In this document: positions 27,979 to 61,555 of the stretch, piece after piece
How positions within the stretch are numbered: the first letter of the stretch is position 1
Layout: each line of letters opens with the position of its first letter
Assembly (NCBI RefSeq): GCF_036323495.1
Contig: NZ_AP028947.1
Location: 1,798,001 to 1,862,000 of the forward strand
Source: Limnobacter thiooxidans
GTDB taxonomy: Bacteria; Pseudomonadota; Gammaproteobacteria; Burkholderiales; Burkholderiaceae_B
Length of the DNA: 64,000 nucleotides
Reading direction: 5' to 3'
The notes under the pieces: generated by a model
The model's input: only the letters and a program-made list of their open reading frames with translations
Databases searched by the model: none
What the model was told of the DNA's origin: nothing
Made by a program: the position numbers and the translations under genes

Positions 27979-30675
27979 TTAAATCAAGGAATCGAGTCCC
28001 AGCGAATCGGAGTCAAACAAATCGCTGTCCGCATCGCGACGTCCAATTGAACGGCCACGGCCACGACTGCCACCCAATAAGTCACCGACCAGTGAAGAAA
28101 CATCGGAGGGGTCGTTTTGTGCGAACTCGCTGACCTGTCTGCCAATTCCACGACAACCATTAGAGACAGTTTTAACCACGGTGCTCACGCCTTCTGTCAC
28201 TGGCGCAAGTGGTTGCAGGGCGCTGTCACTCGTCAAGTCGGTGAGTCCGTCTGCAACTTTATCCAGAGTGGTTGGCAAGCCGCTCTCAACTCCTGAAGAC
28301 TGACCAACGATGGGTGCAAGAAGACCGCTTGTCAGCGGACTCAATGGAGAAGAATCCAAGGCGAGAGTTGTTCCCAGTGCGCCTACTCCGGCAGCCACCC
28401 CGGATGTACTTCCCTCTTGCGAACCCAGTAAATCAGCTACTGGGTCAATCAGACCTTCCAAGGGTGTACCCGTCGTTCCTTCATCCAAGCCAGTTGCAAG
28501 TGAGTTGATGCCTCCAACCAGGCCAGTGTCTTCGCTGGCCTTCGTATCGGTGGTTCCTAATATGTTGGTTAGTAACGTAGCCAGTCCTGTGGGGTCTTGT
28601 TCAGCTACACCCCCCAGTGCGTCTCCCGCTTGAACCAGACCAGAGGCCAAGGCATCGGTAATGCCTGCAACGGGGGCCAGTGGAGTTTGAATCAAGCCTG
28701 TGCCTACATCGTCCAACAAGCCGGCTACGCCGTTTGTTGTTTGTCCTTCAGGCTGTGGAGTTGGTTCAGATTTGACTACGTCCCCGCCCAAAACTTCAGC
28801 CAACAGGCCAAGTGTGCCTGTTGGGTCAACCGAGGCATTTTCCGCAAGTGCGTCTCCGCCCATTTCAATGCCATCAGAAAGTGTTGCCAACAAGGCACCT
28901 ACACCGTCGGTGAGTGGACTCAGGGGCTCCAGGGCGCTTTGATTGCTTAGTTCTTCAAGCCCCGATGAAACACCGTCCAACGTACCTGGCAGGCCATTGA
29001 ATGAGCCGTCGTGAGTTCCGACCACAGGACCGAGCAACTCGGCTGTCAAGGGAGCCAGGGGGCTGACATCTTCGCTGAGTACACCACCAAGCTCTGAGAG
29101 CCCAAGCGCGACCCCACTTGTTTGTCCTTCGTCACTGCCCAGAGTTCTAGCCAACGGGTCAACCAGCACGTCAAGAGGTGTGCCCGCTGTACCCTTGTCC
29201 AAACCTGTGGCGAGTGCGTTTACCGCACCAACCAGCCCTGAGTCTGTCGAACTGCTTGTGTCATTTGTACCTACGACATTTCCAAGCAATGAGGTAATTC
29301 CTGTTGGGTCCTGCTCAGAAACGCCTGCAACTGCATCTCCCACCGTCAGAAGTACTCCAGCAACCGGGTTAGTCAGTGCGGTCAAAGGTTCAAGTGGCGT
29401 TTGAGCCAAGGCAGAATCCACATCACCAACTAAGCCTGCAAGGCCAGTTGTTGATTCATCCACTTGTGACCCTTCAGGTGTTGCACCAGCTTCCACGGGT
29501 GCCCCGAACACTTCCGCCAACAAATCGACAACACCTGTCGGGTCAGCATCTTTGTTTTCGTCCAAAGCTTGGCCTACCTGCGACAGGCCATCTGCCAAGG
29601 TATTCACCACTTCCGATACACCTGATGTGACAGGCGAGAGTGGTGCCAATGCGCTGTCGCTTGAAGTCAAAGACTCCAGACCGTCAGTAACCTGATTCAA
29701 GGTTGAAGGAAGCCCTTGATTTGCTGAACCAGAACCACCCACGATTGGACCCAACAAGCCAGAGGTCAATGGGTTGAGCGCACTTTCGTCATTGGTCAAT
29801 ACGGAACCTAGCCCGGCCAGAGCAGAGGCCACACCTGTTGTCTTCCCGGAGTCTGAGCCTACAAGATTGGCCAAAGGTTCGACCAATGGCGCCAACGGAG
29901 TATCTTTGGTTCCGGCATCTAAAGCCGCAGCGAGTCCATTTACGCCACCCACTAAACCACTGTCAGAAGAGCCGCTGCCTGGTTGAGCAACACCAACCAC
30001 CTCGGACACCAAATCAACGATTCCAGTGGGGTCTTGTTCTGCTACGCCATCCAGTGCTGAGCCAACGTCTGTCAACGCTTGGGCGACTGGCTCCAATACT
30101 TGAGTCAATGGGGCTGCAGGCGTTTGTGCTACACCCTCACTGACACTGTCTACAGTTCCAGCCAAACCGTTGGCTTGGTCCGCTTGAGAGGGAGGAACCG
30201 AACCCATATTGGATGGAGTGTCTGAACTTCCCGTGGAATCGTCGTTATCTGAGAGAAGCAACAGGCCACCGGCTGCAGCAGCGGCTGCCAATGGCCCGCT
30301 GCCCGCAGCGAGAAGACCGCCACCAACCAATCCGAAAACTCCGCAACCTTGCTGTTGAGCCAGCACGCCAGAGGCAAGCTCGTCTTCCTCGTTGTCCAGA
30401 AGAACACCTTGCTCGCAGGTGGGTACGACCTCAGCCTGTTCGATGCCTGTGGCCTCGTCGACCTTGCGTTGAATTTTAGCGCTGGCACCCGGTTGAAGCG
30501 TCAGGGTTGAAGGAGTTTGCCCCTGTACGAACGAGCCAATTTCAACAACCGCATCTTGACTGGCTTGGTTCAGAATTTCATCACCAAAGAGCACAGGCTC
30601 TCCAGGTCCAAGTAAAACCTTTTCCTCTCCACGGGATACAGCAAGTTCTCCTGCTTTGATTACAATTTGCGCCAT
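27979..30675 (-). CDS. Adhesin-like repeat protein A (three ~240-residue repeats)
   Basis: 898 residues, acidic, without Sec signal. Residues 1-~85 form a beta-rich module (KAGELAVSRGEEKVLLGPG, VLFGDEIL, AVVEIGSF) resembling the N-terminal retention/prefix module of LapA/BapA-type type I secreted surface proteins. A Gly/Ala hydrophobic stretch (113-141, FGLVGGGLLAAGSGPLAAAA) and the acidic linker SDNDDS follow. Three tandem repeats start at about 170, 411 and 649, each with AEQDPTGI-like, TPLxxLxxPLAxxxGS and SALxPLxPxTxGV pieces. The end is Arg-rich, then acidic (DSDLFDSDSLGLDSLI). GAGGAA precedes ATG 30675. Paralogous in plan to 59762-61555. Function and export route are inferred. Confidence 0.8.
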   Translation of the reverse strand: MAQIVIKAGELAVSRGEEKVLLGPGEPVLFGDEILNQASQDAVVEIGSFVQGQTPSTLTLQPGASAKIQRKVDEATGIEQAEVVPTCEQGVLLDNEEDELASGVLAQQQGCGVFGLVGGGLLAAGSGPLAAAAAAGGLLLLSDNDDSTGSSDTPSNMGSVPPSQADQANGLAGTVDSVSEGVAQTPAAPLTQVLEPVAQALTDVGSALDGVAEQDPTGIVDLVSEVVGVAQPGSGSSDSGLVGGVNGLAAALDAGTKDTPLAPLVEPLANLVGSDSGKTTGVASALAGLGSVLTNDESALNPLTSGLLGPIVGGSGSANQGLPSTLNQVTDGLESLTSSDSALAPLSPVTSGVSEVVNTLADGLSQVGQALDENKDADPTGVVDLLAEVFGAPVEAGATPEGSQVDESTTGLAGLVGDVDSALAQTPLEPLTALTNPVAGVLLTVGDAVAGVSEQDPTGITSLLGNVVGTNDTSSSTDSGLVGAVNALATGLDKGTAGTPLDVLVDPLARTLGSDEGQTSGVALGLSELGGVLSEDVSPLAPLTAELLGPVVGTHDGSFNGLPGTLDGVSSGLEELSNQSALEPLSPLTDGVGALLATLSDGIEMGGDALAENASVDPTGTLGLLAEVLGGDVVKSEPTPQPEGQTTNGVAGLLDDVGTGLIQTPLAPVAGITDALASGLVQAGDALGGVAEQDPTGLATLLTNILGTTDTKASEDTGLVGGINSLATGLDEGTTGTPLEGLIDPVADLLGSQEGSTSGVAAGVGALGTTLALDSSPLSPLTSGLLAPIVGQSSGVESGLPTTLDKVADGLTDLTSDSALQPLAPVTEGVSTVVKTVSNGCRGIGRQVSEFAQNDPSDVSSLVGDLLGGSRGRGRSIGRRDADSDLFDSDSLGLDSLI
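28066..30168 (-). repeat. Three tandem ~720-base coding repeats in protein A
   Basis: Copies at about 30168-29446, 29445-28732 and 28731-28066, encoding residues 170-410, 411-648 and 649-870. They are diverged at DNA and protein level but keep the order of landmarks GLAGxV, DPTG, DSGLVG, TPL..PLA..GS, LxPLT..LL.PIVG, GLP.TL and SAL.PL.P.T.GV. Confidence 0.8.
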
Positions 30676-30956
30676 GATTCCTCGGTAAATTAGCTAGTGT
30701 TGTCGGTATTACTTGTAATTGCTTGCGACAGATTCAAAAAGAATGAAGAGGATTTACTCCAAATTAGCTGGAGACCTCGACCCTGCGGGTTCAGTTGAGG
30801 GGATAGATTGATTGAAGTTGCTAGAGGGTTTAAACCAACATCCAGGTCTTTAACAATAGGTTGCAATTTTTGTTGGATTGAAACCAATCGGGGGGTGTTA
30901 GACCATGAAATCACTGCCTAGTCACTACCCTGTTGAAACAACGTGATTCAAAAACC
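30676..30956. other. AT-rich leader region of protein A
   Basis: About 280 bases with no credible gene. It must hold the promoter of the repeat-protein gene; TTGAAT and AT-rich candidates exist at about 30690-30745 on the minus strand, but spacing is poor and no site can be assigned. Confidence 0.4.
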
Positions 30957-31211
30957 TTACTCCGAAGAGAGTATTGGCAGTCCCAAAGTATGAACTACAG
31001 TATCTCTGTCGTTCGGACCTTCAGACTCTATCGCACAACATAAACGGTTATCTCTAACCCATTTTAGCTGCTCATCAGTTCGACATTTGCAGACATTTTG
31101 GTTGCAATGCGAGCAAAACCTAATATCAGAAAATGGAGTTTTCTGTAGTGACCGCCACTGAACAGGGCATTTAAACTCAAACTCACAATCGACCACCTTG
31201 TATGAAGCCAT
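30957..31211 (-). CDS. Small Cys-rich, probably zinc-binding protein
   Basis: 84 residues with eight cysteines: Cys9, Cys15, the knuckle FCSHCNQNVCKC (residues 32-43), and RLCCAI near 58. The pattern W..L..T....RxCSxCNxxVxxCxxxxxL......xCxAI is one I have seen in uncharacterised proteins of diverse bacteria and suggests a zinc ribbon. An AGGA lies upstream of ATG 31211. Lies between protein A and the NYN gene, same strand. Confidence 0.65.
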   Translation of the reverse strand: MASYKVVDCEFEFKCPVQWRSLQKTPFSDIRFCSHCNQNVCKCRTDEQLKWVRDNRLCCAIESEGPNDRDTVVHTLGLPILSSE

Positions 31212-31255
31212 GAAACATATCCTTAAGCGTAAGTATCAAATCACCCGGGCATGGG

Positions 31256-32062
31256 CTATTTTTTGCGCTTCAAATAAAGCTGCTTGTTTTGTTGTCCGGA
31301 AGGTACGCGTTCTTCAGTCAGAAAAAGGTCGACTCGCGATTTCACCAGCTCAGACAACTTTTTAAAACCGTAAGCGCGTGAATCGAAATCTGGCTTGATT
31401 TTTGTCAGATAACTTCCGAATGTTCCCAAATGCGACCATCCAGACTCATCGCTGGACTGCTCAAGTGCGCTTACGAGAAATTGAGTAGGAAGCAGCGATT
31501 TTGAGACGATATTTGGCGTAGAGGGACTCAGCTCAGTTTCTGCCTGGTTGGTTTTATTAATGGCAAGAGGTTCTACGTTCTCACTCTGGTTGCTACGCAG
31601 AACTTCAGTCAGTATGAATCTATGACACGCGCTGCGAAATGCATCAGGGGTTTTGTTCTCACCAAACCCTAGAACTGTTAACCCCTCTTCACGTAAGCGC
31701 ATGGCAAGGCCGGTGAAATCGCTATCACTGGTCACCAAGCAAAAACCGTCGAATTTACGGGTGTATAGCAAATCCATGGCGTCAATGATGAGTGAACTGT
31801 CAGTTGCGTTCTTGCCAATCGTGTACGCAAATTGTTGAACCGGCTTGATAGCGTTCTTCTGAAGTACCCTCTTCCAACTTGCACTGGCTGACGAGGTGAA
31901 ATCCCCGTAAATACGCTTTACCGTAGCTTCACCAAATCTGGCTATCTCCGCGAGGATGGGCTCTATCACCGCTGCCTGCGCATTGTCTGCATCAATCAGT
32001 ACAGCAAGACGTGAAGCGGGCTCTTCAGATTCAATTTTTGCGATAAGGCGAGGAGATACCAT
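31256..32062 (-). CDS. NYN (PIN-like) domain protein with C-terminal LOTUS/OST-HTH domain
   Basis: 268 residues. The NYN part (about 18-155) shows LAVLIDADNAQAAV with the first acidic pair, KRIYGDFTS, SSLIIDAMDLLY and LVTSDSDFTGLAMRLREEG, i.e. the Asp set of a PIN-like nuclease as in LabA/DUF88 proteins. After a polar linker, residues ~195-268 fit a LOTUS/OST-HTH domain (LVSALEQS, WSHLGTFGSYLTK, FKKLSELVKS), an RNA- or G-quadruplex-binding fold. Probably an RNase or RNA-binding regulator. ATG 32062 chosen; a TTG at 32089 extends it by nine residues. Confidence 0.85.
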   Translation of the reverse strand: MVSPRLIAKIESEEPASRLAVLIDADNAQAAVIEPILAEIARFGEATVKRIYGDFTSSASASWKRVLQKNAIKPVQQFAYTIGKNATDSSLIIDAMDLLYTRKFDGFCLVTSDSDFTGLAMRLREEGLTVLGFGENKTPDAFRSACHRFILTEVLRSNQSENVEPLAINKTNQAETELSPSTPNIVSKSLLPTQFLVSALEQSSDESGWSHLGTFGSYLTKIKPDFDSRAYGFKKLSELVKSRVDLFLTEERVPSGQQNKQLYLKRKK

Positions 32063-32825
32063 GAGAGACCGTTCGAATATATGGTCCAAAAAGATACCGC
32101 TTGTGCCCCAACTAATGTGAGTAAAAAAACGGATGTAAACAGTCTCTTTTCGTCATTTGGAAATCAAGAAAATAAATAAGCTAAGCAAAAAATCTGCGAG
32201 ACTTTGGCTTGCAAATAAATGGAAAAATGAGAACAGTAGTCAGGTAGGTACCTCGGGACGCATACTGGACTTTCAGGCCATGAAAAACATCATCGATCTT
32301 TCCTCCTTTATGCCTGCGTCTAAGGCCTGATACTCTTTTTTTGACTGTTAACTTGCCGGCGAAACTTACGCCTGGCCCACGCGCAGACTTAAGCTCTGTT
32401 TAAACAAACACCCAAAGTTGAAGGTCGTATCGACGGAGCTGCTTATAGTGTATGAACGTTCCGGTACACCAAGTGCGCTAGAGACCTCGGCCAAACTCAG
32501 ACAAACTGCGTCTCGGTTCGTACATCAGGTGGCGTAGGGGTTGAGCGAGCGAAGATCTTTGCTGGCGCCTGATGCTTAAGCGGAAAAGGACAGGCATTCA
32601 TTGCAAGCGCGCAAAGTTCACTTTTCGACTTCAAAACTTACGGGGAGGGTGTGCTCGGAAATGCCACGGTCAAGAATATCTTGAACCTCGGAAGAACTAT
32701 TGAGGGAATCTGTGTGAATTGCCTACTTCCTGCATTGCAAAGTAGCCTGACCGCGCTTGTCATCCCCTCAATCTTGTAACACTGTTACCTCGATTTTGGT
32801 AACAAATACAAATCGAAGGGGCAAA
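32063..32825. other. Gene-poor AT-rich tract
   Basis: About 760 bases with no gene I can support. It contains a 16-codon ATG frame (32280-32330) without a ribosome site, and a start-less open frame at about 32573-32778 with no recognisable family. It lies on the 3' side of tRNA-Glu, where islands often integrate. No copy of the tRNA 3' end, no integrase and no inverted terminal repeat was seen by eye. Confidence 0.5.
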
Positions 32826-32866
32826 TAAAAAGGCAGCGATTCCAACTTCTTGAAATCACTGCCTTT
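32826..32866 (-). terminator. Terminator after the tRNA operon
   Basis: On the minus strand AGGCAGTGATTTC pairs with GGAATCGCTGCCT (one mismatch plus one G-U) around an eight-base loop and ends in TTTTT. It lies just downstream of tRNA-Glu. Confidence 0.85.
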
Positions 32867-32875
32867 TGCCGTAAC

Positions 32876-32951
32876 TGGCATCCCCAACCGGATTCGAACC
32901 GGTGTTACCGCCGTGAAAGGGCGGTGTCCTAGGCCTCTAGACGATGGGGAC
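32876..32951 (-). tRNA. tRNA-Glu (anticodon TTC)
   Basis: 76 bases with encoded CCA. Acceptor GTCCCCA pairs with TGGGGAT (G-U at the first pair), anticodon arm CCGCC-CTTTCAC-GGCGG gives TTC, T-arm contains GGTTCGAATCC. Second gene of a two-tRNA transcript. Confidence 0.97.
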
Positions 32952-32967
32952 CTAAAACTGTGTGCTT

Positions 32968-33043
<76 letters not shown>

Positions 33044-33058
33044 GAAGCGAAGACCAAT

Positions 33059-33087
33059 ATTATTTACTATTTTGATTAACTTGTCAA
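33059..33087 (-). promoter_or_regulatory. Sigma-70 promoter of the tRNA-Ala/Glu operon
   Basis: On the minus strand a perfect -35 TTGACA (33082-33087), 17-base AT-rich spacer, and -10 AATAAT (33059-33064, five of six matches). Expected start about 8 bases before the tRNA-Ala 5' end. Confidence 0.8.
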
Positions 33088-33234
33088 CACGTTGTTGATT
33101 AAATTTAAACAAAACTTTTAAAACTTATCGCCTTCTGCCTGCATTGCCTCAGCAATTTGAGCAGGTCGAATTATACACATATTTGTCGGTTACACTGCAA
33201 GTGATTTTTACAAAAAAACAGAAGCACATCACAA

Positions 33235-33798
33235 ATGAAATATTGCAGCACATGTAGCACCCCCCTCGAGCTTCGCATACCCGAAGGTGACAACCGACCA
33301 AGAAGTTGCTGCCCGGGATGTGGCGTAATTCACTATGTGAATCCGAAAATTGTCGTTGGCTCCATACCCACCTTCGAAGGCAAGGTGCTGCTTTGCAAGC
33401 GCGCCATTGAGCCACGTTATGGATTCTGGACCCTGCCTGCCGGCTTCATGGAACTGAATGAAACCACCCACGAAGGTGCGCAACGCGAGACCTGGGAAGA
33501 AGCAGGCGCCAAAATCAAACTGGGTCCGTTGTTTACCATGTTCGACGTGATTCGCGCCGAGCAGGTTCACATTTACTTTCGTGCAGAAATGTCCTCAGCA
33601 GAATTTTGTGCGGGCGAAGAAAGTCTGGATGTAAAGTTGTTCTCGGAGGAAGAAATTCCTTGGGACGAGTTGGCTTTTAAAACCGTTTCAAAAACACTCA
33701 GCCTGTTTTTCGCGGACAGAAAAGCCGGGCAATACACTTTGCACACGGGCGATGTGTACGACCACACCGACTGGGCCGCATCGCAGTTCAAGGTCTGA
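33235..33798 (+). CDS. Nudix hydrolase with N-terminal zinc ribbon
   Basis: 187 residues. Zinc-ribbon cysteines C4-x2-C7 and C26-x2-C29 precede a Nudix domain with a complete Nudix box, Gly70-x5-Glu76-x7-Arg84-Glu85-x2-Glu88-Glu89-x-Gly91 (read as GFMELNETTHEGAQRETWEE then AG). Similar ribbon-Nudix proteins act on NADH, FAD or ADP-ribose; the substrate here is not determinable. First gene of a likely operon with aat (8 bases apart), bpt and pyrD. Confidence 0.93.
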   Translation: MKYCSTCSTPLELRIPEGDNRPRSCCPGCGVIHYVNPKIVVGSIPTFEGKVLLCKRAIEPRYGFWTLPAGFMELNETTHEGAQRETWEEAGAKIKLGPLFTMFDVIRAEQVHIYFRAEMSSAEFCAGEESLDVKLFSEEEIPWDELAFKTVSKTLSLFFADRKAGQYTLHTGDVYDHTDWAASQFKV

Positions 33799-33806
33799 AC
33801 CGGACG

Positions 33807-34535
33807 ATGAGTAGAACCACTATTCCCTGGATCGACTCTCCATCCGATTTCCCTCCCACTGACGAGGCATTGCAATACCCGCCCGGCCTTCTTGCAGCCA
33901 GCCACCAGATCAATGCTGACTGGCTGCAGGCCAGTTATGCCAAGGGCATTTTTCCCTGGTATTCCAACAATGAACCCGTTCTTTGGTGGAGTACAAACCC
34001 CCGTGCTGTGTTGTTCACTGCAGAATTCAAACTGCACAGGTCCTTGGCCAAAGCAGTCAAAAAAATCGCCCTTGACCCGGAACGCGCAATTCGACTCAAC
34101 ACGGCATTCGAGCGGGTCATGCGCGCTTGTGCCGCGCCACGGCCCGGACAGGATGGCACCTGGATCACGGAAGAAATCATTGCAGCTTATGTGGAACTGC
34201 ACCACCGCGGATTTGCACACTCAGTTGAGCATTGGCATGGCAATGCACTGATAGGCGGCCTGTACTGTGTAGCCATGGGAAAAATGGTGTACGGTGAAAG
34301 CATGTTTTCCACACAGACCGATGCCTCTAAAGTGGCGTTTGCCCATTTTGTGTATTGGCTAAAATCGCAGAATGTGCACATAATTGATTGCCAGCAGGCG
34401 ACCGGGCATTTAATGTCCATGGGAGCCCGCACGGTGAGTCGAAAGGTGTTTGAAACTGAAATGGCGAATTCCATTGTGCAGCCCACCTTGAATTGGGAAC
34501 CACGCGAACTGACATGGACGTATGACCAGACCTAA
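33807..34535 (+). CDS. aat: Leucyl/phenylalanyl-tRNA-protein transferase
   Basis: Adds Leu or Phe from aminoacyl-tRNA to proteins with N-terminal Lys or Arg, marking them for ClpS/ClpAP (N-degron pathway). 242 residues. Family motifs: [19 protein letters not shown] near the N-terminus, [35 protein letters not shown] and [12 protein letters not shown], then [15 protein letters not shown]. Overlaps bpt by 14 bases. Confidence 0.97.
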
Positions 34536-35259
34536 GGAACTGCCCTTTTCCACGTTGCAGTTTTATTCAACTGCGCCCTACCCTTGCAGCTACCTGGACA
34601 ACCGTCTGGCTCGCTCGCAAGTGGCCACGCCAAGCCACCTTATCAATGCCGATGTGTACAGCGAATTGGTGCGAATGGGGTTTCGTCGCAGCGGGCTGTT
34701 TACCTACAAACCGCATTGCGACGGTTGTAATTCGTGCAAGCCGCTGCGGCTGAAGATTAGCCAGTTTCAAACCAATCGCAGCCAACGGCGAACTGCCAAA
34801 GCGTTTTCTAATTTGAAACCCAGTGTGCAACGCCTGCACTTCAACCTGGAGCATTATTCGCTATACCTGAAGTACCAGTCAGCCCGGCACCATGGCGGCG
34901 GTATGGACGAAGACAGCCGCGAACAATACTCCCAGTTTTTATTGCAAACCCGCGTGAACTCCCGGCTGGTCGAATTTCGCAACCCGGAAGGCAAACTGGT
35001 GATGGTGTCCATCATCGACATTCTCACCGATGGCTTGTCTTCGGTGTACACCTTCTTCGATCCCGAGGAACGTAGTGGCCTGGGTGTGTATGGCGTGCTC
35101 TGGCAAATTGAACAGTGCCGCGACCTTGAACTTCCTTACTTGTACCTGGGGTACTGGATACGGGAAAGCGAAAAAATGGCTTACAAGGCCAAGTTTTCAG
35201 CCGCTGAAGTGTTGCAGGACAATGTGTGGCAAACGTTGCCTGAGCCTCGACACGAATAA
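34522..35259 (+). CDS. bpt: Aspartate/glutamate leucyltransferase (Bpt)
   Basis: Transfers Leu to proteins with N-terminal Asp or Glu, the second branch of the bacterial leucine N-degron pathway. 245 residues, homologous to eukaryotic arginyltransferase ATE1. Motifs: [39 protein letters not shown] with its clustered Cys, [17 protein letters not shown] and [20 protein letters not shown], then [19 protein letters not shown]. Start overlaps the end of aat. Confidence 0.97.
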
Positions 35260-35328
35260 GCGCAAGCAATACCCGTTACAATTCGGGCTGTTCCTCTCTC
35301 TTGCTGGCCTTGTTGGCCCTGTTTGACC

Positions 35329-36384
35329 ATGCTGCTGCCCTACTCCCTGATTCGCCCCGCCCTGTTTGCCCTTGACCCGGAAAAGGCGCACCACGTCACC
35401 TTCAGCAATCTGCAAATGCTGCGCAAGGTTGGTTTGCTGAAAGCCTTATCACCCAGCGCGGTTTCCGATCCGGTGAAGGTCATGGGCATAGAGTTTCCCA
35501 ACCGGGTGGGCTTGGCAGCGGGCCTTGACAAGGACGCAGCTTACATCAGCGAACTTGGGCTGATGGGATTTGGTTTTCTGGAAGTAGGCACTGTAACGCC
35601 CAAGCCTCAGCCGGGTAATCCCAAGCCACGGCTGTTTCGCTTGCCACAAGCGGATGCATTGATTAACCGCATGGGCTTTAACAACGAGGGGGTGGACACC
35701 CTGATTCGCAACGTGAAAGCCAGCAACTACCCCGGCGTTCTGGGTATCAATATCGGGAAAAATGCAGCCACACCAGTGGAACAGGCTGCAGACGATTACC
35801 TGAAAGCCCTTGAAGCCGTGTACCCCTATGCAACCTACATCACGGTGAACATCTCTTCGCCCAACACCAAGAACCTTCGCGACCTGCAGGGTGGCGACAG
35901 CCTGGATATCCTGCTGGGTTCTCTGAAAGAAAAGCAGAAAGCCTTGGCAGATGAACATGGCCTCTACAAACCCATGGCACTAAAAATTGCACCCGACCTG
36001 GATGACGCACAGATCGATGCCATTGCTCAGCGCCTGACCCACTTTGGATTTGACGGTGTCATTGCCACCAACACCACCATCGACAAAAGCAGTGTTTCAG
36101 GCCTTGCACACGGCGATGAGCAGGGAGGATTGAGCGGCGCACCAGTGCTCGAAAAATCCACGCATGTGATCAAGCGTCTTTATTCGGAATTGGGCGATGA
36201 CGTTCCAATCATCGGCGTGGGCGGCATTTCAAGTGGTGAACACGCCGTTGAAAAAATCCGTGCTGGTGCAAAGCTGGTTCAAATTTACACAGGGCTGATT
36301 TACAAAGGCCCGGCCTTGGTCACTGAATGTGCGGCCACTATTCGCTTGAATTGCAAAAGAAAAGCCCATGCGAACCGCACTTGA
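35329..36384 (+). CDS. pyrD: Dihydroorotate dehydrogenase (quinone), class 2
   Basis: Oxidises dihydroorotate to orotate in pyrimidine synthesis, passing electrons to quinone at the membrane. 351 residues. Motifs: [63 protein letters not shown] (catalytic Ser loop), ATNTTIDKS and [22 protein letters not shown] 35329 chosen; a TTG two codons earlier is less likely. Last gene of the Nudix-aat-bpt-pyrD group, 69 bases after bpt. Confidence 0.97.
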
Positions 36385-36452
36385 TTGAAGGTCTATGACC
36401 CACGTGCCAGGCCTGTCTTGAGCCGGGACGTGGGAACTCGAAATTCAAACCC

Positions 36453-37862: not shown

Positions 37863-37880
37863 GGTGTTTACTGCCTTTAA

Positions 37881-50961: not shown

Positions 50962-51006
50962 GCGACCTGCGACCTGCGACCTGCGACCTGCGACCTGCGA
51001 CCTGCG
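50962..51006. repeat. Heptanucleotide tandem repeat (GCGACCT)6
   Basis: Six perfect copies of GCGACCT from 50962 to 51003 plus a partial seventh. No spacer, so not CRISPR. Likely prone to slippage. Confidence 0.95.
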
Positions 51007-51246: not shown

Positions 51247-51275
51247 GCTGCTCAACAAAAGCGTTGTTGAGCAGC
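51247..51275 (-). terminator. 12-base-pair hairpin, possible decarboxylase terminator
   Basis: GCTGCTCAACAA (51247-51258) pairs perfectly with TTGTTGAGCAGC (51264-51275) around a five-base loop. It lies 56 bases after the decarboxylase stop. On the minus strand only CTTTG follows, so termination may be weak or Rho-assisted. Confidence 0.5.
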
Positions 51276-51330
51276 ATCGAACACCGACTCAAAGGCCGGC
51301 GCAACGCACGCCGAACATGGCTTGCGATGC

Positions 51331-53586: not shown

Positions 53587-53728
53587 TGATCTTCCTGTGA
53601 TCGGGGTTTAAAACGGGCTGGCATCAAACACGCCAAAGCCACAACAAGCCTGCATTATCCACTACGTGGTGCCCTGCACCAAGTCCTATTGTCGCTCAAT
53701 TATCCCTCGATGTAGTGACTTCACGGAA

Positions 53729-54922
53729 ATGTCACATTCAACGGGTTCAATGGCCCCCTTTAGAGCCATTCGAAGAACCATGCGAATCAGTCTTAATGCG
53801 CAAACCCATCACGCTTCCTTCACAAAAGAATCATTCCAGGCAATCAAGCATTTCACAAGGCGAGTGGACACGTATCTGGACAGAAACGAAGCAGGATTTG
53901 AACGCATGGCACGGGTTCGCAAAACAATGCAGGCCTCACCCGGGAACTGCCATTACATCGATCGAAAGCTGACCACGCCGGAACAATACAAAAGTCCGCT
54001 TATGCGGGGTTTGGTTCATGTTTGCGATTGTATGGAAGAGATTGCCGAGAGCTGCGCTGACATTTCTGGACTTGCAGAACGGCTGGTCAGGTACATGATT
54101 TCGTCGGGTGACAAGAACGACCTGGCCTTGGTCCTGGCTTCTGCGGTGGGGCGAATAGTTGCCGGGCAGATGAACCTGGTTGGCATGGCAGTGCACAAAG
54201 TTGCCGGCGCTTCGCTCTACGCCCTCTCAAGCTTGCTCAGTCTCGCTACCTGGGGGCTTGCCAAAACCAGGCTTGGGGCGCTGCGCAGTCAAGCTGAAAT
54301 GGCTGAGTTAAAAGCAGAAAAATCCCGACCTATTCGATTGTATGAGCCCGTTGCAAACACCTTGTTGAAGGGAAAGGAAACGGTCCTGGGTCATCTATTG
54401 AGGAAACTGGAGCAACGGTCGGGTTCGGTCATGGTGTCGGCTATTCGGCAATGGGCGAGACATCTGCATCGTGGCCACTCCCTGGTCTGCTCAAATGATC
54501 CACAGAGAAGGAAAGGCCACTGCAGCTACATGTGGAAAAATCTTCACCAGTACGGTCCGGTTACGCGTGCGTTGATGCATTTCGCGTATTTCACCTTTCA
54601 ATTCATCAACAAGGTACTGGTGTCTTATGACAAACACCTCGGAACAGCCATTGGCGAACGCCTGCTGGCGAAAAAAACCGGGAGTATTCTTGGGTGCAGG
54701 CTGGGCTTGACTGCCGGTGTGGGGCTTGCCGCGGGCTTGTCGATCCCGCTGTCACCCCTGCTGGTGGGCATTTCAACTGTGGCTGCGGCGGTGTGTGGGG
54801 TGGCCTTGGTCGCATTGTTGTTGGCCAAGTCCAATGTTCACCTGTTTCAGGACTGGAAAGGCAACATCACCGCCATTCAAGGCGATCAGGTTTTTGGCAA
54901 AGTCACACCCACCTGGCCTTGA
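53729..54922 (+). CDS. Membrane-associated protein of unknown function
   Basis: About 397 residues, no family recognised. Helical and basic in the first half ([40 protein letters not shown]). A hydrophobic segment lies in the middle ([18 protein letters not shown]) and a long one near the C-terminus ([20 protein letters not shown] through VALVALLLA), which could form a helical hairpin. Start is uncertain: ATG 53729, 53750 or 53780. Its last 37 bases overlap the convergent dcd gene. Codon use looks like its neighbours. Confidence 0.6.
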
Positions 54923-55452
54923 TATTTGCCACCCCGGTCACGATAAGACGTTTCGCAAACTTCATCGCTTTCGAAGAACAGGACCTGGGCACAACCTTCA
55001 CCCGCATAAATCTTAGCAGGCAGTGGCGTGGTATTGGAAAACTCGAGGGTTACATAACCCTCCCATTCGGGCTCAAATGGAGTAACGTTCACGATGATTC
55101 CGCAACGTGCGTAGGTGCTTTTCCCCAAACAAATGGTCAACACGTTACGGGGGATGCGGAAGTATTCGACCGTGCGAGCCAAAGCAAATGAATTGGGCGG
55201 AATAATGCAGACATCACCCTTGAAATCCACAAAACTTTTTTCATCGAAATTCTTGGGATCAACAATGGTGCTGTTGATGTTGGTAAAAATCTTGAATTCG
55301 TTGGCACAGCGAATATCGTACCCGTAGCTCGAGGTTCCATAGGACACAATTCGTGTGTCGCCCGAAAAGCGAACCTGTTCGGGTTCGAATGGCTCGATCA
55401 TGCCCGTGCTTTCGGCCATTCGACGAATCCATTTGTCAGATTTAATGCTCAT
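54886..55452 (-). CDS. dcd: dCTP deaminase
   Basis: Deaminates dCTP to dUTP, feeding dTMP synthesis. 188 residues, the usual length. Motifs: [47 protein letters not shown] (substrate site) and [11 protein letters not shown] with the catalytic Glu region. The RWG-rich end [19 protein letters not shown] is typical. Overlaps the convergent unknown gene; 55 bases after the next upstream gene. Confidence 0.97.
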
Positions 55453-55507
55453 GTTGGGTTTTTTTCGTGGAAGTTCAATATTCCCGAATGTTACATGAGC
55501 AAGGGCA

Positions 55508-56029
55508 TCACTGATTCATCTCTTCAAGAATCTGGCTTAATTCCTGCATCACCGAGTTGGCCAGGGCATCAAAGAAAACACGGATCAACTCGGCCAACTG
55601 GGCGGCCGTCACCCCGGTCAAGGGAAGTTGCATCAAAAATTCAAGATTCTCCGTGTCCATGTTGATTCCCACCTGATATTGAAAATCAAGCACGTGGATC
55701 ATCGTGAACGCTTCAGCCAAAAAATGAAGGCAAATTTCAGCTGAATTAGGCTCGTTCATGTTGTACAGGGGGAAGGCCATGACCACCCAACGGGTTTGGG
55801 CGGACTCCCCAGGACGAAAAGACAGTTCAAACTGCTCTTTTTTACCCATAACGACGTTTTCACCGTCAAACCACTGCATTTTTGCAAGCTGGATGGCATC
55901 GTGAAGCAGGATTGATTCTGCGGGGGTAAAACCGTTTACGAGAATTTTAGGCTTGGTGGAAGTTGTAGCCGCAGAAGCAGCAGGCGCACCCTTTGGCTTC
56001 GATTCGAACTGACCTGGACGGAAATTCAT
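55508..56029 (-). CDS. Protein of unknown function
   Basis: 173 residues, no family recognised. A flexible Ala/Thr/Lys-rich N-terminus ([20 protein letters not shown]) is followed by a compact mixed alpha/beta region ([35 protein letters not shown]) and an acidic helical C-terminus ([13 protein letters not shown]). Start is ATG 56029, which follows GAGGCAC; an in-frame start ten codons earlier is less likely. No membrane segment or signal peptide. Same strand as dcd and the peptidase-like gene. Confidence 0.65.
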
Positions 56030-56104
56030 ATTGGAGTGCCTCGTTTGGGTTGCAACCACAATTGAGTAGACGTGGTTTCAACAAAGGTTCCAAAGTTATT
56101 CCGT

Positions 56105-57106
56105 TCAGGCTGGAAGGTGATGTTGGCTCACAGCCTCCGAGAGTGCCGTCAACATCGCACCCGACTGTGCCAGGTGACCTGTGCCTTGAAGTTCAATCAA
56201 GGAGGTCCTAAGGATACTTTCAGAGAGCATGCGTGCCCCACCGGGCGGACAAACCCTGTCAGCCAGACCTTGCACAATACTGAGCTTCCACGGAGCTTGC
56301 GCACATTCAGCCACCAGTTTGTCCCAATCCGCAGCCCCCAGAAAGCAATCGTGCTTCAGGAAATGGGCTTGAAGCCGATACTTTCTGACCAATCCAAGCT
56401 CTTGGGTGTCCGAGAGAAAGCCCGACTTCGAATTCTGCAGAGGTTCACCGGTCAGCAAAGCTGTTTCAAGACGACTCCAGGCTATAGACAGTTCGACCAG
56501 ATGTTCTGGCGTGGCGACGTCAAAACATTCACACACAGTTGATGTTCGGGCACCTGGCCCGAAATGGTCCGCAAAATAGACAGGGGCAACATTTTCAAGC
56601 GCTTCGAAAAAGGCATCGACCCTGGAACGCAGGGGAACAAACGGCGCCCGCAAAACGACACTGACGACCCTTTCCGGGCGATAAGCAGCCAAGGCCAGGG
56701 CCAGCGTTGCCCCCCAGGATCCACCCAGTATGTGAAACTGTTTGATTTCCAGGGTGTCTGCGACATCCAGTGCATCATCAATGTAACGCTGCAAGTCAAT
56801 CACGCTTAAATCGAGGTCTTCGCTCAACCCGCTGTTGCGTTGATCAAAGCCGAACCAAGGCAAGCCAGCATAACGCAGTGGTGCCACATGGGACGCACTC
56901 AAACTGCCACCAGGGCCACCATGAAGCACCAGCCACGGAGAAGGTCTTAAAGGTTGGCTGAGTGCCTTGGCATTGCCCTGCTCTGCCCAGACAGCCACAT
57001 TCCCACCCAAATCAAGCAACGCCTGAGGGCGTGACCAAGCCCCAGCCAACCCCGATTTCGGGGATGGCGAGGCCAACTTTGAAAAGGACAGGTTCTCTTT
57101 AGGCAA
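56105..57106 (-). CDS. pip: Proline iminopeptidase-like alpha/beta hydrolase
   Basis: About 333 residues, family S33. Oxyanion motif HGGPGG, nucleophile elbow GGSWGATLAL, DQRNSGLSE between them, and the C-terminal GTGHLAQ with the catalytic His. Classical Pip releases N-terminal Pro from peptides; this copy is diverged, so another ester or amide substrate is possible. No early ATG exists: TTG 57106 (with GGGGG about eight bases upstream) is preferred, and TTG 57160 would put the start inside the end of mrp. Tight spacing implies co-transcription with mrp. Confidence 0.82.
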   Translation of the reverse strand: MPKENLSFSKLASPSPKSGLAGAWSRPQALLDLGGNVAVWAEQGNAKALSQPLRPSPWLVLHGGPGGSLSASHVAPLRYAGLPWFGFDQRNSGLSEDLDLSVIDLQRYIDDALDVADTLEIKQFHILGGSWGATLALALAAYRPERVVSVVLRAPFVPLRSRVDAFFEALENVAPVYFADHFGPGARTSTVCECFDVATPEHLVELSIAWSRLETALLTGEPLQNSKSGFLSDTQELGLVRKYRLQAHFLKHDCFLGAADWDKLVAECAQAPWKLSIVQGLADRVCPPGGARMLSESILRTSLIELQGTGHLAQSGAMLTALSEAVSQHHLPA

Positions 57107-57140
57107 TAGATGCCCCCAAGGCGCTGCGCAAAACGCAAAC

Positions 57141-58232
57141 TCAGGTGTTTTGTACCACAATCGATGGAAACTTCAAGGACATGTCCTTGGACTGCTCTGC
57201 AATTCGAATGGCCACTTTTCTGGCAATTTCCTTGTAGGTTTTGGCCAAGTCACCATCAGGATCAGCGACCACAGTGGGTTTACCGGAGTCAGCCTGTACT
57301 CGGATTCGCATGTCCAGCGGCAAACCACCCAGGTAGTTGATGTTGTAGTCCTTGGCCATTTTCTGGCCACCACCATCACCAAAAATATGTTCCTGATGAC
57401 CACAGTTGGTGCAAACGTGGATGGCCATGTTTTCAACCAACCCCAAAATCGGAACACCCACCTTCTCGAACATTTTCAGGCCCTTGCGAGCATCCAGCAA
57501 GGCGATATCCTGGGGGGTGGTCACAATGACAGCACCTGTTACTGGCACTTTCTGCGACAGCGTCAATTGAATGTCACCCGTGCCAGGTGGCATATCAACA
57601 ATTAGATAATCCAGATCTTTCCAGTTGGTCTGCTTCAACAGTTGTTCAAGCGCGCTGGTGACCATGGGACCACGCCACACCATGGGCGTGTCTTCATCAA
57701 TCAGAAAACCAATTGACATGGCCTGAACACCATGGCCTTCCATCGGATCGATAACCTGCCCGTCATCAGACTGTGGGCGACCAGTAATACCCAGCATGGT
57801 GGGCTGTGACGGGCCATAAATGTCTGCGTCCAGCATTCCAACGCGTGCGCCTTCCGCCACTAAAGCCAAAGCCAGGTTGACCGCAGTGGTGCTTTTGCCC
57901 ACACCGCCCTTGCCGGAAGCCACCGCAATAATGTTCTTCACATTGGGCATGGGCTTCAAGCCACGCTGCACAGCATGCGTCTGAATTTTGATGGTAGCGT
58001 TGACACTGACGTTTTCAACGCCAGGCACCTGAGCACGTACGGCCGCAATGGCCGCTTTACGCAGACCATCAAGCTGGCTTTTTCCGGGGTAACTCAGCTC
58101 AAGTTCAAAACTTACATCACCACCGTCTACCTGAATGTTCTTGATCAACTTCGCGCTGATGAAGTCTTTGTTCAAATTGGGGTCAATCACACCGCGCAAA
58201 GCGTCGCGTACGGTATCGATAGTCACTGACAT
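57141..58232 (-). CDS. mrp: Mrp/ApbC-type iron-sulfur cluster carrier ATPase
   Basis: 363 residues. N-terminal MIP18 (DUF59) domain (1-~90), then a P-loop domain with GKGGVGKSTTAVNLALAL at about 106 and GMLDADIYGPSQP, DMPPGTGDIQLTL. CTNCG near residue 273 gives the CxxC that holds the 4Fe-4S cluster to be handed on to apoproteins. ATG 58232 follows GAGGAGA. Divergent from rubredoxin. Confidence 0.95.
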   Translation of the reverse strand: MSVTIDTVRDALRGVIDPNLNKDFISAKLIKNIQVDGGDVSFELELSYPGKSQLDGLRKAAIAAVRAQVPGVENVSVNATIKIQTHAVQRGLKPMPNVKNIIAVASGKGGVGKSTTAVNLALALVAEGARVGMLDADIYGPSQPTMLGITGRPQSDDGQVIDPMEGHGVQAMSIGFLIDEDTPMVWRGPMVTSALEQLLKQTNWKDLDYLIVDMPPGTGDIQLTLSQKVPVTGAVIVTTPQDIALLDARKGLKMFEKVGVPILGLVENMAIHVCTNCGHQEHIFGDGGGQKMAKDYNINYLGGLPLDMRIRVQADSGKPTVVADPDGDLAKTYKEIARKVAIRIAEQSKDMSLKFPSIVVQNT

Positions 58233-58486
58233 ACACACTCTCCTCAAATCTTGTCTGATGCTGTATTTTTCGGTATAGGCGCGAGTTTAGCCTGTTTTTT
58301 GATACGTGGCTTGCGGCTGCAGAAAAGCAAGCCCTTCCCATGCCTGTCGTTTACCCTAAAGCCTTCGAGCAGCCTTGCATGGTCAGACTACAAATGTTTA
58401 CAACGACCCGAGAGTCACTCCAACTTTTTAAGGGCACAACTTGATAGCATTGCACGACAAAAATCAAACACTTTGGAGATTTACCA

Positions 58487-58651
58487 ATGAAGACGTATGT
58501 GTGTATCGTGTGTGGGTTGGTGTATGACGAGGCCGCTGGAATGCCTTCTGAAGGTATTCCGGCTGGAACCCTGTGGGCTGACGTACCCGCCGACTGGCTG
58601 TGTCCGGATTGTGGCGTGGCCAAAAGCGACTTTGAAATGGTTGAAGTTTAA
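58487..58651 (+). CDS. Rubredoxin
   Basis: 54 residues. [18 protein letters not shown] with CxxC at Cys6/Cys9 and [19 protein letters not shown] with CxxC at Cys39/Cys42 bind a single iron. A one-electron carrier, e.g. for alkane hydroxylase or reductive stress defence. GGAG at 58475-58478 is placed correctly before the ATG. The gene stands alone between divergent mrp and convergent DUF2804. Confidence 0.96.
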
Positions 58652-58673
58652 GATCTGGGCTTTTCCGGCATTG

Positions 58674-59684
58674 TCACCACTTGGCGTAGTGGTCTTCGCA
58701 CCATCCCGCCAAGCCATTAACTGAATACGCAAGTCCCTTGGCTGGTAGTTTCACAGTACCGGTGAATTTGCCAAAGCACTGGTTGAATCGACTAGCCATT
58801 ACAATCATGTTGCGGTGGTCATCGACACTGCCCTCGGGCGCGAACTGCACATCAACAGCGCCACACTGTGAATAAACCTGCCAGGGTTTCAGAATATCGT
58901 CCCGATCATATTCAAACAGTACCAGTGGCAAGTCGTGAATGGCACCGTCCACCCAGAGAACGTTCTCGTGGGCACTGGTTTCGTTCACTCCACGGGCCAC
59001 ATTCAGCGAAATCAAAGGCTGATCAGGCGCTGTCCGGCCACTCGCGCACGCCCAGTTCCAGAAGGTTTCCCGTCGCAGAAAGCCGGCTGTCCAGTCGTGG
59101 TAGCAGCCGTCTTTTTCTGGCTGAATCGTGTATTTATTTCCATTAAGAAATATTTCCCCTGACACGCTGCCACCACTGCTTTTCTGGGCATAGGCAAAAC
59201 CGGTGTTTGCAATCGGCGTATTCAAGGCCAGGGTTTCGGAGCGATCGCAATCAATCCGAACATGTCCGTAAAAATTCTTGCCAAACTGAAATTGAAGTTC
59301 GCGGGACTGGGCATCTCGTGTTGATGACACGCTGTGATTTTTCTTGAAAGGATGAACCCAGGTTGTACGACCCAAGGGCTTGTAATCGCTTTGAAACCCA
59401 AGATCAAAGGGCATGTCAAACTGCACACGGTGCAATCCCGAAGTGCTGTGCAGGTAAGCAAAGGTTGAATTCAGCGAACCCAGGCGCACCATGCCGCAAC
59501 CGAAAGTGAAATTTTCACCCAGTGCACCGTAAAAATCGAAGTGCTTGAAGAGGAAACTTTTGGTCCATGCCTTACGAGGTTTGCCCATGGCATTGCGTGC
59601 ATCGTACTGTTCCCAGTTGATGCGATCAGGCAGGCTGCTTAGCCGACCCCAGGCAGGAAGGCCAGAAATATCGATCAGATTCAT
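58674..59684 (-). CDS. DUF2804 family protein
   Basis: 336 residues matching DUF2804: WTKSFLFKHFDFYGAL, DGCYHDWTAGFLRRETFWNWACAS and SLNVARGVNETSAHENVLW are recognisable. All-beta, with no signal or membrane segment. Function unknown, though the family resembles lipocalin-like hydroxyneurosporene-synthase folds in some annotations. Downstream of the protein B terminator on the same strand. Confidence 0.83.
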   Translation of the reverse strand: MNLIDISGLPAWGRLSSLPDRINWEQYDARNAMGKPRKAWTKSFLFKHFDFYGALGENFTFGCGMVRLGSLNSTFAYLHSTSGLHRVQFDMPFDLGFQSDYKPLGRTTWVHPFKKNHSVSSTRDAQSRELQFQFGKNFYGHVRIDCDRSETLALNTPIANTGFAYAQKSSGGSVSGEIFLNGNKYTIQPEKDGCYHDWTAGFLRRETFWNWACASGRTAPDQPLISLNVARGVNETSAHENVLWVDGAIHDLPLVLFEYDRDDILKPWQVYSQCGAVDVQFAPEGSVDDHRNMIVMASRFNQCFGKFTGTVKLPAKGLAYSVNGLAGWCEDHYAKW

Positions 59685-59690
59685 AAATGA

Positions 59691-59717
59691 AATCGGGCAA
59701 GTTTGACTTGCCCGATT
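59691..59717 (-). terminator. Hairpin after protein B
   Basis: Perfect 11-base stem AATCGGGCAAG / CTTGCCCGATT (59691-59701, 59707-59717) with a five-base loop, 45 bases after the protein B stop. Minus-strand downstream is TTCATTTATG, a weak T-run. Confidence 0.7.
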
Positions 59718-59761
59718 CGGTCATGATTAATCAACCGCACGCAGGGCGGAACAATTGCTTC

Positions 59762-61555
59762 TTAGAACGGCAACCCACCACCCAAGGCATCGGTCAGCAG
59801 GGCTGGATCAGCCATGCTTGTGATTGAAGCCAAAGGCGTATTTGCAGCCAGATCCATCAAAGGTTCAAGCGCCGCATCCAATGGTGTTCCTGTCGGGCCA
59901 CCAGCACCACCACCTGCGCCGCCTGCTGCATCAGCCAATGGGCCAAGTACCGCATCCAACGGTGTTCCTGTTGGGCCACCCGCACCACCACCACCTGCTC
60001 CACCAGCAGCGTCAGCCAATGGGCCAAGCACCGCATCCAGCGGTGTTCCTGTTGGACCACCAGCACCACCACCTGCGCCGCCTGCTGCATCAGCCAATGG
60101 GCCAAGTACCGCATCCAACGGTGTTCCTGTTGGGCCACCCGCACCACCACCACCTGCTCCACCAGCAGCGTCAGCCAATGGGCCAAGCACCGCATCCAGC
60201 GGTGTTCCTGTTGGACCACCAGCACCACCACCTGCGCCGCCTGCTGCATCAGCCAATGGGCCAAGTACCGCATCCAGCGGTGTTCCTGTTGGGCCACCCG
60301 CACCACCACCACCTGCTCCACCAGCAGCGTCAGCCAATGGGCCAAGCACCGCATCCAGCGGTGTTCCTGTTGGACCACCAGCACCACCACCTGCGCCGCC
60401 TGCTGCATCAGCCAATGGGCCAAGCACTGCATCCAGCGGGGTCCCTGTTGGGCCGTCTGTTCCGCCACCGGCGCCGCCTGCTGCATCAGCCAATGGGCCA
60501 AGTACCGCATCCAACGGTGTTCCTGTTGGGCCACCAGCACCACCACCTGCGCCGCCTGCTGCATCAGCCAATGGGCCGAGTACCGCATCCAATGGTGTTC
60601 CTGTCGGGCCACCAGCACCACCACCTGCGCCGCCTGCTGCATCAGCCAATGGGCCAAGTACCGCATCCAACGGTGTTCCTGTTGGGCCACCAGCACCACC
60701 ACCTGCGCCGCCTGCTGCATCAGCCAATGGGCCGAGTACCGCATCCAATGGTGTTCCTGTCGGGCCACCAGCACCACCACCTGCGCCGCCTACTGCATCA
60801 GCCAATGGGCCAAGTACCGCATCCAGCGGTGTTCCTGTTGGGCCGTCTGTTCCACCACCTGCGCCGCCTGCCGCTCCACCAATCATACCCAGCGCATCAG
60901 CCAAAGGTTCTGAAATGACGGCCAGTGGCGTGCCAGCCAAAGCGCCCAAGACTGGATCAAGCACTGCATCAAGGGGAGTACCAGTTGTCCCACCCATGTC
61001 GGTGCCACCACCACCTGTATCTGTTCCACCGTCGTTGCCACCGACGGTACCGCCGCCAGCAGAACTGGTTGGGCCTGAGCCCTCGTCATCACTGGAGGCC
61101 AGCAAGCCCAATCCAACAGCGCCTGCGCCTATAGCCGCTGCAGTCCCGCCCATGGATCCTCCCGCCAATAAGCCAGCCCCACCGAACAGTCCAAACATGC
61201 CACCTTGTTCTCCGGCCAGCCCAACACCCTGCAGTTCAACCAGGTTGGCAAAATCCGGGTCCAGATTCGATAGAGTCACGCCATCGTCAGAAAGTGCCTC
61301 AAATACAAATGCTGTTTGTCCATTCTTGGTTGTGGTGTCAGCGATCACGCTTCCTGTGGGTGCAACCAACAGGTTGCCAATTGGTTCTCCGTAGCTGTTG
61401 GACAGCACAATTGACGCGCGTCCAGAGTCACTGGCCGTGATCACGTCCCCAGCCAATATGGAATCTCCGCGTGCCAGCGACCGGGTCTCACCGTCGCGCA
61501 TTAGGCTTACTGGACCTTCTAAATCATTGACTGAACCAATTACTTGACTGGACAT
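59762..61555 (-). CDS. Adhesin-like repeat protein B (Gly-rich, 12-unit array)
   Basis: 597 residues, no Sec signal. Residues 1-~90 form a beta-rich module close to LapA/BapA-type retention modules (VIGSVNDLEGPVSLMRDGET, LARGDSILAGDVITASDSG). A Gly/Ala hydrophobic stretch follows at 117-153 (MFGLFGGAGLL, then GAGAVGLGLLAS), then an acidic, Gly/Thr-rich linker. From 242 to 556 run 12 units of TPLDAVLGPLADAAGGAGGG with AGGPTG (26 or 27 residues), then a degenerate end (TPLDAALEPLMDL, TPLASI). A clear GGAGG precedes ATG 61555. This frame is preferred to long antisense frames because only it has a non-repetitive N-domain and ribosome site. Same plan as protein A. Confidence 0.82.
   Translation of the reverse strand: MSSQVIGSVNDLEGPVSLMRDGETRSLARGDSILAGDVITASDSGRASIVLSNSYGEPIGNLLVAPTGSVIADTTTKNGQTAFVFEALSDDGVTLSNLDPDFANLVELQGVGLAGEQGGMFGLFGGAGLLAGGSMGGTAAAIGAGAVGLGLLASSDDEGSGPTSSAGGGTVGGNDGGTDTGGGGTDMGGTTGTPLDAVLDPVLGALAGTPLAVISEPLADALGMIGGAAGGAGGGTDGPTGTPLDAVLGPLADAVGGAGGGAGGPTGTPLDAVLGPLADAAGGAGGGAGGPTGTPLDAVLGPLADAAGGAGGGAGGPTGTPLDAVLGPLADAAGGAGGGAGGPTGTPLDAVLGPLADAAGGAGGGTDGPTGTPLDAVLGPLADAAGGAGGGAGGPTGTPLDAVLGPLADAAGGAGGGGAGGPTGTPLDAVLGPLADAAGGAGGGAGGPTGTPLDAVLGPLADAAGGAGGGGAGGPTGTPLDAVLGPLADAAGGAGGGAGGPTGTPLDAVLGPLADAAGGAGGGGAGGPTGTPLDAVLGPLADAAGGAGGGAGGPTGTPLDAALEPLMDLAANTPLASITSMADPALLTDALGGGLPF
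59888..60832 (-). repeat. 78/81-base coding tandem array
   Basis: Twelve units, nine of 78 and three of 81 bases. Higher-order copies are visible: the 81- and 78-base units alternate at the 3' end of the gene as 159-base dimers (59.88-60.36 kb), while a 156-base dimer recurs at the 5' end (matching stretches at about 60575 and 60731). Confidence 0.9.

Follow-up and report, generated by a model that had tools for sequence, protein, structure and literature searches.

The 64,000-nucleotide stretch of the Limnobacter thiooxidans genome analysed here (the window; C1:1798001-1862000 of a genome consisting of a single 3.54-Mb contig, C1) codes for two repeat proteins, A and B. Sequence comparisons support their assignment to one Limnobacter family with about ten paralogues per genome, and profile and model comparisons support an N-terminal beta domain (the N-module) of the Marinomonas-anchor and LapA-retention type. 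We regard it as fairly probable that these are modular surface proteins, composed of an anchor, a Gly/Ala stretch, a linker and variable repeats, which would be exported by a type I secretion system (T1SS) and displayed at the cell surface.

Adhesins that are secreted by a type I system and retained by TolC are mostly known as single giant proteins, and are often controlled by LapG. Retained adhesins and their LapG control are treated in passages of PMC13090378 and PMC12153261. If our reading is true, about ten small helical-repeat relatives without LapG, present genus-wide, would make the anchor domain a reusable display module, would invite the question of how many substrates can occupy a single channel, and would give roles open to testing to proteins mostly listed as hypothetical.

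Results

A and B belong to a family of about ten proteins

The original prediction, made from the letters of this DNA, proposed two paralogous adhesin-like proteins with a common N-module, a hydrophobic stretch, a linker, and repeats of very different size built on one core. Both open reading frames (ORFs) are present exactly where it placed them, on the minus strand, and are complete (Table 1); plus-strand readings of the two regions are riddled with stops. A 526-aa (amino acid) antisense ORF covers B (window 59814-61394, plus) and is probably a by-product of the repeat codons. The hydrophobic Gly/Ala stretch occurs as FGLVGGGLL in A and FGLFGGAGLL in B, and the linker after it is acidic or Gly-rich, both as claimed; the linker is probably unstructured. 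The N-module pattern (GE/GP...G[ED]....GD.I) is likewise found in both proteins, with the correction that its first position in B is GP, not GE.

A profile built from ten N-modules finds nine copies in the genome (E-value 3.2e-9 or better), in A, B and seven further proteins, named here by the start of their genes on C1. By reading, each of the nine has the beta domain and a Gly/Ala stretch with a GLxGxGLL-like motif, then a linker, and repeats rich in Leu, Pro and Gly. A tenth member with a weaker match (C1:216677) has the same plan in 243 aa, its hydrophobic stretch being degenerate. A family of two was therefore an understatement, and the prediction also missed that no LapG is found, as described below.

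Compared as profiles, the N-module beta parts of A and B score 46.5; the highest score among 20 column shuffles is 15.8. Paralogues link them further: against the beta part of 411409, A scores 96 (shuffled maximum 55) and B 80 (maximum 44), and B scores 97 against that of 1967083 (maximum 41), each with 200 composition shuffles. The prediction of a single family is upheld by these comparisons.

Of 16 genus genomes, 14 are matched by the N-module profile, at 5-11 matches per genome counting the weak tenth type; the 13 genomes with at least 90% completeness and no more than 5% contamination are all among them. Order-wide, 30 of 300 genomes match; two of these are Limnobacter, and the others (28 of 298) have weak matches only, of about 22-35 bits, confined to profile positions 1-93 with a single exception (G093, positions 5-152, 28.6 bits). 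Searching proteins with the family profile yielded 211 matches, and among the 120 of them listed all that carry a genus name are Limnobacter; candidates for this search were restricted by length and common words, and a distant relative could be missed. Public annotation has put names on single Limnobacter homologues: 'Retention module-containing protein' (P0104), 'BapA prefix-like domain-containing protein' (P0135) and 'beta strand repeat-containing protein' (P0008). Among the papers listed by our searches of the open literature, no title or abstract start describes the family.

Named homologues of A come from Limnobacter humi, Limnobacter sp. MED105 and one Burkholderiales metagenome-assembled genome, and 10 of 12 homologues are 893-910 aa long. 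The 12 listed homologues of B measure 329-348 aa, against 597 aa in B, in a search that let in only lengths of about 0.55-1.75 times that of B; those read hold far fewer repeat units, and the sequences are consistent with tandem expansion of the array in the present strain. A B-type tail (..ITSMxDP.... ending LPV or LPF) is similar in most B homologues printed.

The N-module resembles known anchoring and retention domains

Aligned by hhalign with 29 LapA retention modules, the family beta parts of all groups together reach a probability of 96.5 and a score of 58.8 (maximum 14.5 in 20 shuffles), and those of the B group alone score 50.4 (shuffled maximum 17.8). In structure comparisons PDB entry 5ix9 is the top row for the models of both A and B, and for B it is also the top row in Foldseek. 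The match of the B model to this Marinomonas-type anchoring fold lies far above the remaining rows, extends over most of the domain and is well above background. The same entry is a weak sequence match (E-value 0.0084); Tako8 sequences from the PDB, which ranked above it, were rejected as repeated 7-bit matches. The predicted resemblance to LapA and BapA modules is supported, through profiles and fold, for anchors of the LapA/Marinomonas type, and fails for BapA: the BapA prefix model (NF033677) has no match in A or B (E-value up to 1), in the seven other paralogues (up to 10) or in the whole genome (0.001), and a class-wide search gave four weak matches in 274 genomes, none of them in this one.

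LapG (PF06035) has no match in the genome; the identical search was positive in one of 14 control genomes (Caulobacter). In Lap-type modules, according to a passage of PMC13090378, a cleavage site of DP plus [T/A/P]AAG precedes the channel segment. No DP-[TAP]AAG site was seen in the family by reading alone; an Ala run followed by Gly in the hydrophobic stretch of A fits AAAG trivially.

The Gly/Ala stretch has almost no flanking positive charge

Four residues of the Gly/Ala stretch are invariant (G122, L123, G128 and L130 in B numbering), and the stretches of A and B have a predicted local distance difference test score (pLDDT) under 50 in both predicted models. We considered an inner-membrane or cytoplasmic location, with the Gly/Ala stretch serving as a transmembrane helix, a FecR-like beta domain inside the cytoplasm, and repeats that are either periplasmic or internal. 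It would fit the 19-residue mean hydropathy of the stretch, 1.5-1.9, and the best match of the LapA model NF033682 in this genome (C1:1318786), an ordinary FecR protein that is not a family member. Against it, in all nine proteins the 40 residues scanned on either side of the stretch contain no more than one Lys/Arg per side (in A there are acidic residues and no Lys/Arg), so that there is no positive-inside signal; the fold match of B, well above other rows, is to a surface-anchoring domain; and the repeat architecture and the acidic, Cys-poor composition fit export. We consider an internal location quite unlikely.

Repeats of different size probably share a helical core

Self-alignment gives a lag of 238 residues in A and 26 in B, as unequal as had been proposed. 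The proposed TPL core is present in both, for example as TPLAPLVEPLANLVGS at A residues 259-274; a strict pattern for it has three occurrences in the repeat region of A and 14 in that of B, and 500 composition shuffles of each protein never produce it. The repeats of 2464010 and 2469561 match those of A (59.3, null maximum 22.0 in 40) as well as the B unit (30.8, maximum 15.4), and because they match both they bridge A and B. Paralogue 412382 carries both repeat kinds: residues 310-500 align with the A repeats (44.5% identity, E-value 1e-31) and residues 602-889 with those of B (43% identity, E-value 1e-32 with B as query). Its local alignment scores are 405 with A (maximum 115 in 200 composition shuffles) and 553 with B (maximum 246), the latter including an exact 15-residue match. 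In the predicted model the A repeats are helical at a pLDDT of mostly 55-75; a whole-length model of A gave no useful fold for them. Overall, a helical core common to A and B, as predicted, is supported at modest strength. Neither N-domains of unrelated fold nor a TPL core due to composition bias was found, the two outcomes named beforehand as refuting the prediction.

Scans of A and B with Pfam and NCBIfam (E-value up to 1) found no RTX or Big family, in agreement with the prediction; NCBIfam gave nothing above cut-off for either protein, and Pfam gave A sub-threshold matches only, the best being Collagen_mid (PF15984). The proteins could on that account belong to the Collagen_mid adhesins described in the Burkholderia cepacia complex, having only another N-terminus. 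Protein A reaches 27.5 bits, or 32.8 with its neighbours in frame, at a cut-off of 31.1; two of its 12 homologues carry the PF15984 label in precomputed annotation; and the Collagen_mid family is described in part of PMC10224339 as mostly from Burkholderiaceae and as proposed adhesins. The likeness is made up of this borderline repeat match, low complexity and the proposed adhesin role. The best stretch of A covers 60 of 198 profile positions, B and the seven other clear paralogues have no match, and the N-terminus differs from that of the Collagen_mid proteins. Several of the published proteins are called lipoproteins in the same source, whereas none of our nine has a signal-like hydrophobic start. 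Membership of this group is, in our judgement, unlikely. Matches of two paralogues to MSCRAMM and TolA, from acidic dipeptide arrays, and of one to Mce were rejected as composition.

A conserved type I system accompanies the family

In type I export a protein leaves unfolded, with its C-terminus first. The traits of type I substrates (no N-terminal signal, acidic, few Cys) are satisfied by the nine paralogues: no signal-like hydrophobic segment occurs in their first 35 residues (best 12-residue mean 0.60-1.33), their computed isoelectric point is the program floor of 4.05, and they have 0-3 Cys.

Three type I loci of the genome were read, at 2.11, 1.65 and 0.27 Mb. Besides its transport genes (Table 1), the 2.11-Mb locus holds an extracytoplasmic function (ECF) sigma factor, a probable anti-sigma factor (below cut-off) and unnamed proteins of 502 and 275 aa. 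This gene order is kept in the four other genus genomes read (five of five in total), the anti-sigma frame being unlisted in one, L129. Of the 16 genus genomes, the 14 with the family, and no others, also have the TolC of this locus. A GISS-like motif is carried by the C-termini of all ten of the 502- and 275-aa proteins from five genomes, and it extends to some family members. With a matrix for this motif, two of the nine family C-termini (9.7 and 9.4) score above all 128 control C-termini (maximum 4.1), which were taken from non-overlapping ORFs of at least 200 aa, some of them not real genes; the nine together rank above the controls (Mann-Whitney p 1e-4) and above their own internal windows (p 0.0015). 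As profiles, the C-termini of 2464010/2469561 score 29.8 against the tail of the 502-aa protein (maximum 15.8 in 40 shuffles) and a mixed C-terminal group scores 24.0 (13.2), so that two of six groups match with none of 40 shuffles reaching them. Composition, T1SS co-occurrence and these C-termini lend indirect support to the predicted hint of type I secretion for the family, short of the C-termini of A and B themselves. The acidic tail of A is a possible secretion signal, though the GISS-type motif of other members was not detected there.

The family and its anchor could alternatively be served by the 1.65-Mb system, or by either system without preference. The 1.65-Mb system has ABC (732 aa), HlyD and TolC parts, its TolC is in 16 of 16 genus genomes, and the C-terminal motif seen at the 2.11-Mb locus was not detected in A and B; it is also present, however, in the two genomes without the family, and is adjoined by a 510-aa protein of its own. 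We hold this assignment to be rather unlikely. The TolC of the 0.27-Mb locus has a full match only in the present genome, and in the other 15 of the genus no match exceeds 33% identity; the locus (C1:262500-282400) lies between two proteins that read as RTX-like, of 2076 aa and at least 1987 aa.

Discussion

The proposed mechanism and its strength

We propose that a family protein would be exported from the cytoplasm in unfolded form by a type I system, its C-terminus leading; that the N-module would fold in the periplasm and stay behind, with the linker threading a TolC-like channel; and that Leu/Pro-rich helical repeats of variable size and number would be displayed outside. No LapG was found in the genome and Lap-type release is therefore not expected, so that the proteins would stay on display permanently or be removed in some other way. 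Such proteins may act in adhesion or biofilm formation. The data bear directly on the unity of the family, the homology and fold of the anchor, the genus distribution, the missing signal peptide and the co-occurrence with one T1SS, and export, the choice of T1SS, topology and adhesion are inferred from them. More tentatively, and at somewhat less than an even chance, the family may form a multi-member surface coat, in which one conserved ECF-sigma-linked T1SS exports about ten small proteins lacking calcium-binding repeats, all kept in the outer membrane by a common anchor domain and free of LapG-type release. Diversity would then arise as helical repeats rich in Leu and Pro are swapped and expanded, and through stalks of acidic dipeptides (DA/SD) running through the channel.

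Several results weigh against the proposed export and anchoring. As to similarity, two paralogues score 22.0 and 18.5 bits with NF033682, below its curated cut-off of 50 bits, and A, B (E-value up to 1) and five other scanned paralogues have no match; the A group alone aligns more weakly with the LapA modules (probability 46.9, 29.4 against 15.3); and Foldseek gave no match at an E-value of 0.001 or better. Single N-modules of A and B score 43 (maximum 42 in 200 shuffles), so their likeness needs profiles and paralogues to be seen, and the profiles of the A repeat and the B unit score a marginal 28.1 (none of 100 column shuffles reaching it, maximum 26.5). With 412382 as BLAST query A is found (E-value 1e-32) and B is absent even at an E-value of 10, making that link one-directional, and the repeat models are of low confidence. 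These marginal direct scores, and the dominance of eight residue types, which account for 82% of A and 91% of B, are what would be expected of unrelated low-complexity proteins alike by composition. The column-shuffled N-module profiles, the link through 411409, and the presence in 412382 of both repeat kinds, beyond same-composition shuffles, already contradict that explanation and leave it highly improbable.

As to export, none of the ten family genes adjoins a T1SS here, judged by an ABC search and the ORFs read. Neither matrix nor profile comparison detected the C-terminal motif in A, in B or in the 285-aa group, the 2465482 group is indistinguishable from shuffles (1-3 of 40 reach it), and in one orthologue of the tenth paralogue the body outscores the tail. 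The p-values for the motif are optimistic, because it was seen by eye before testing. Co-occurrence with the 2.11-Mb system rests on two negative genomes, 85% and 65% complete, which may be one lineage; incompleteness does not fully explain the absence, because both keep the 1.65-Mb TolC.

Table 1. Coordinates of proteins A and B, their parts, and related features (window positions unless given on C1)
Feature	Position	Strand	Description
Protein A, 898 aa	27979..30675	minus	N-module, Gly/Ala stretch, linker, three ~238-aa helical repeats, C-terminal tail
A residues 1-105	30361..30675	minus	Beta N-module, anchoring/retention-like
A residues 115-142	30250..30333	minus	Conserved GLxGxGLL and Gly/Ala hydrophobic stretch
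A residues 170-868	28072..30168	minus	Three ~238-aa repeats, predicted helical; borderline Collagen_mid (PF15984) match
A residues 869-898 and stop	27979..28071	minus	Acidic C-terminal tail
Protein B, 597 aa	59762..61555	minus	N-module, Gly/Ala stretch, Gly-rich acidic linker, 26/27-aa repeat array, tail ending GLPF
B residues 1-110	61226..61555	minus	Beta N-module
B residues 121-152	61100..61195	minus	FGLFGGAGLL and Gly/Ala hydrophobic stretch
B repeat array, DNA level	59872..60871	minus	78-bp unit, 12.7 copies, 159-bp higher-order period
B residues 573-597 and stop	59762..59839	minus	C-terminal tail
Clear family members	A, B and proteins starting at C1:411409, 412382, 2464010, 2465482, 2469561, 1967083, 3354707		N-module profile search
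Tenth N-module protein, 243 aa	C1:216329-217060	minus	Divergent
2.11-Mb T1SS	ABC gene C1:2114282-2116207		HlyD above type I cut-off; ABC and TolC best match type I families, under cut-offs (profile scores)
1.65-Mb T1SS	ABC gene C1:1655757-1657955		ABC of 732 aa, HlyD and TolC parts

Neighbouring genes

Downstream of A lies an operon of resistance-nodulation-division (RND) efflux type, with adaptor, pump and outer membrane factor named by reading (window 21812-27470, minus). It was not used, the adjacency being found in L003 and not in L002 or L004. B is flanked by two genes which we take to be DUF445-like and DUF2804-like (window 58674-62902); in six genus loci (L079-L083, L087) the former is present in all six and the latter in five. 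A protein of eukaryotic source, P0026, has the DUF445-like neighbour fused to a B-type N-module, and is most likely bacterial contamination combined with a faulty gene model.

Three family genes form a same-strand cluster (C1:2464010-2471381) together with a TadG-like gene (sub-threshold), and a 107-aa protein of this cluster has its C-terminal part in common with 2465482 (E-value 8e-11). After the tenth-member gene comes that of a conserved 211-aa protein, which has invariant SGPC and LEWxVV patterns and no Pfam match; the 211-aa gene is in the corresponding position in G303, G003 and G300, the tenth-member frame being unrecovered in the G303 piece. A C39-like peptidase was dropped as an assignment for it, Pfam giving nothing and PDB sequences unconvincing rows only. 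A few kb downstream of family gene 3354707 are type III genes, with SctJ and SctC above cut-off (C1:3354707-3364900). A type III system has been assigned to Limnobacter in algal cultures in a passage of PMC4224133, which also reports that Limnobacter ranked first in abundance among the bacteria of three out of 13 Ostreococcus cultures.

Comparison with known systems

Two paralogues (L028:9383-12076 and L029:9483-11717, both minus) have long (Asp-Ala)n arrays straight after the hydrophobic stretch, replaced by (Ser-Asp)n at a related genus locus (L071); such dipeptide arrays recall staphylococcal stalks, as composition matches. With the LapA retention module (NF033682) the family shares the N-terminal position and a first part homologous to the N-module, and differs in that the FVRLLRI-type tail, frequent in genuine modules, was seen in none of the family sequences. 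PDB entry 5ix9, titled 'Cell surface anchoring domain' with the molecule given as 'Antifreeze protein', is presumably from the RTX adhesin of Marinomonas primoryensis. A and B, of 898 and 597 aa, have repeats of another kind than this adhesin, with no RTX match, and are far from its size of 1.5 MDa (given at the start of the PMC8092209 abstract). The anchoring principle is already known, and the family that would put it to use here has, in sequence searches so far, been found only in Limnobacter.

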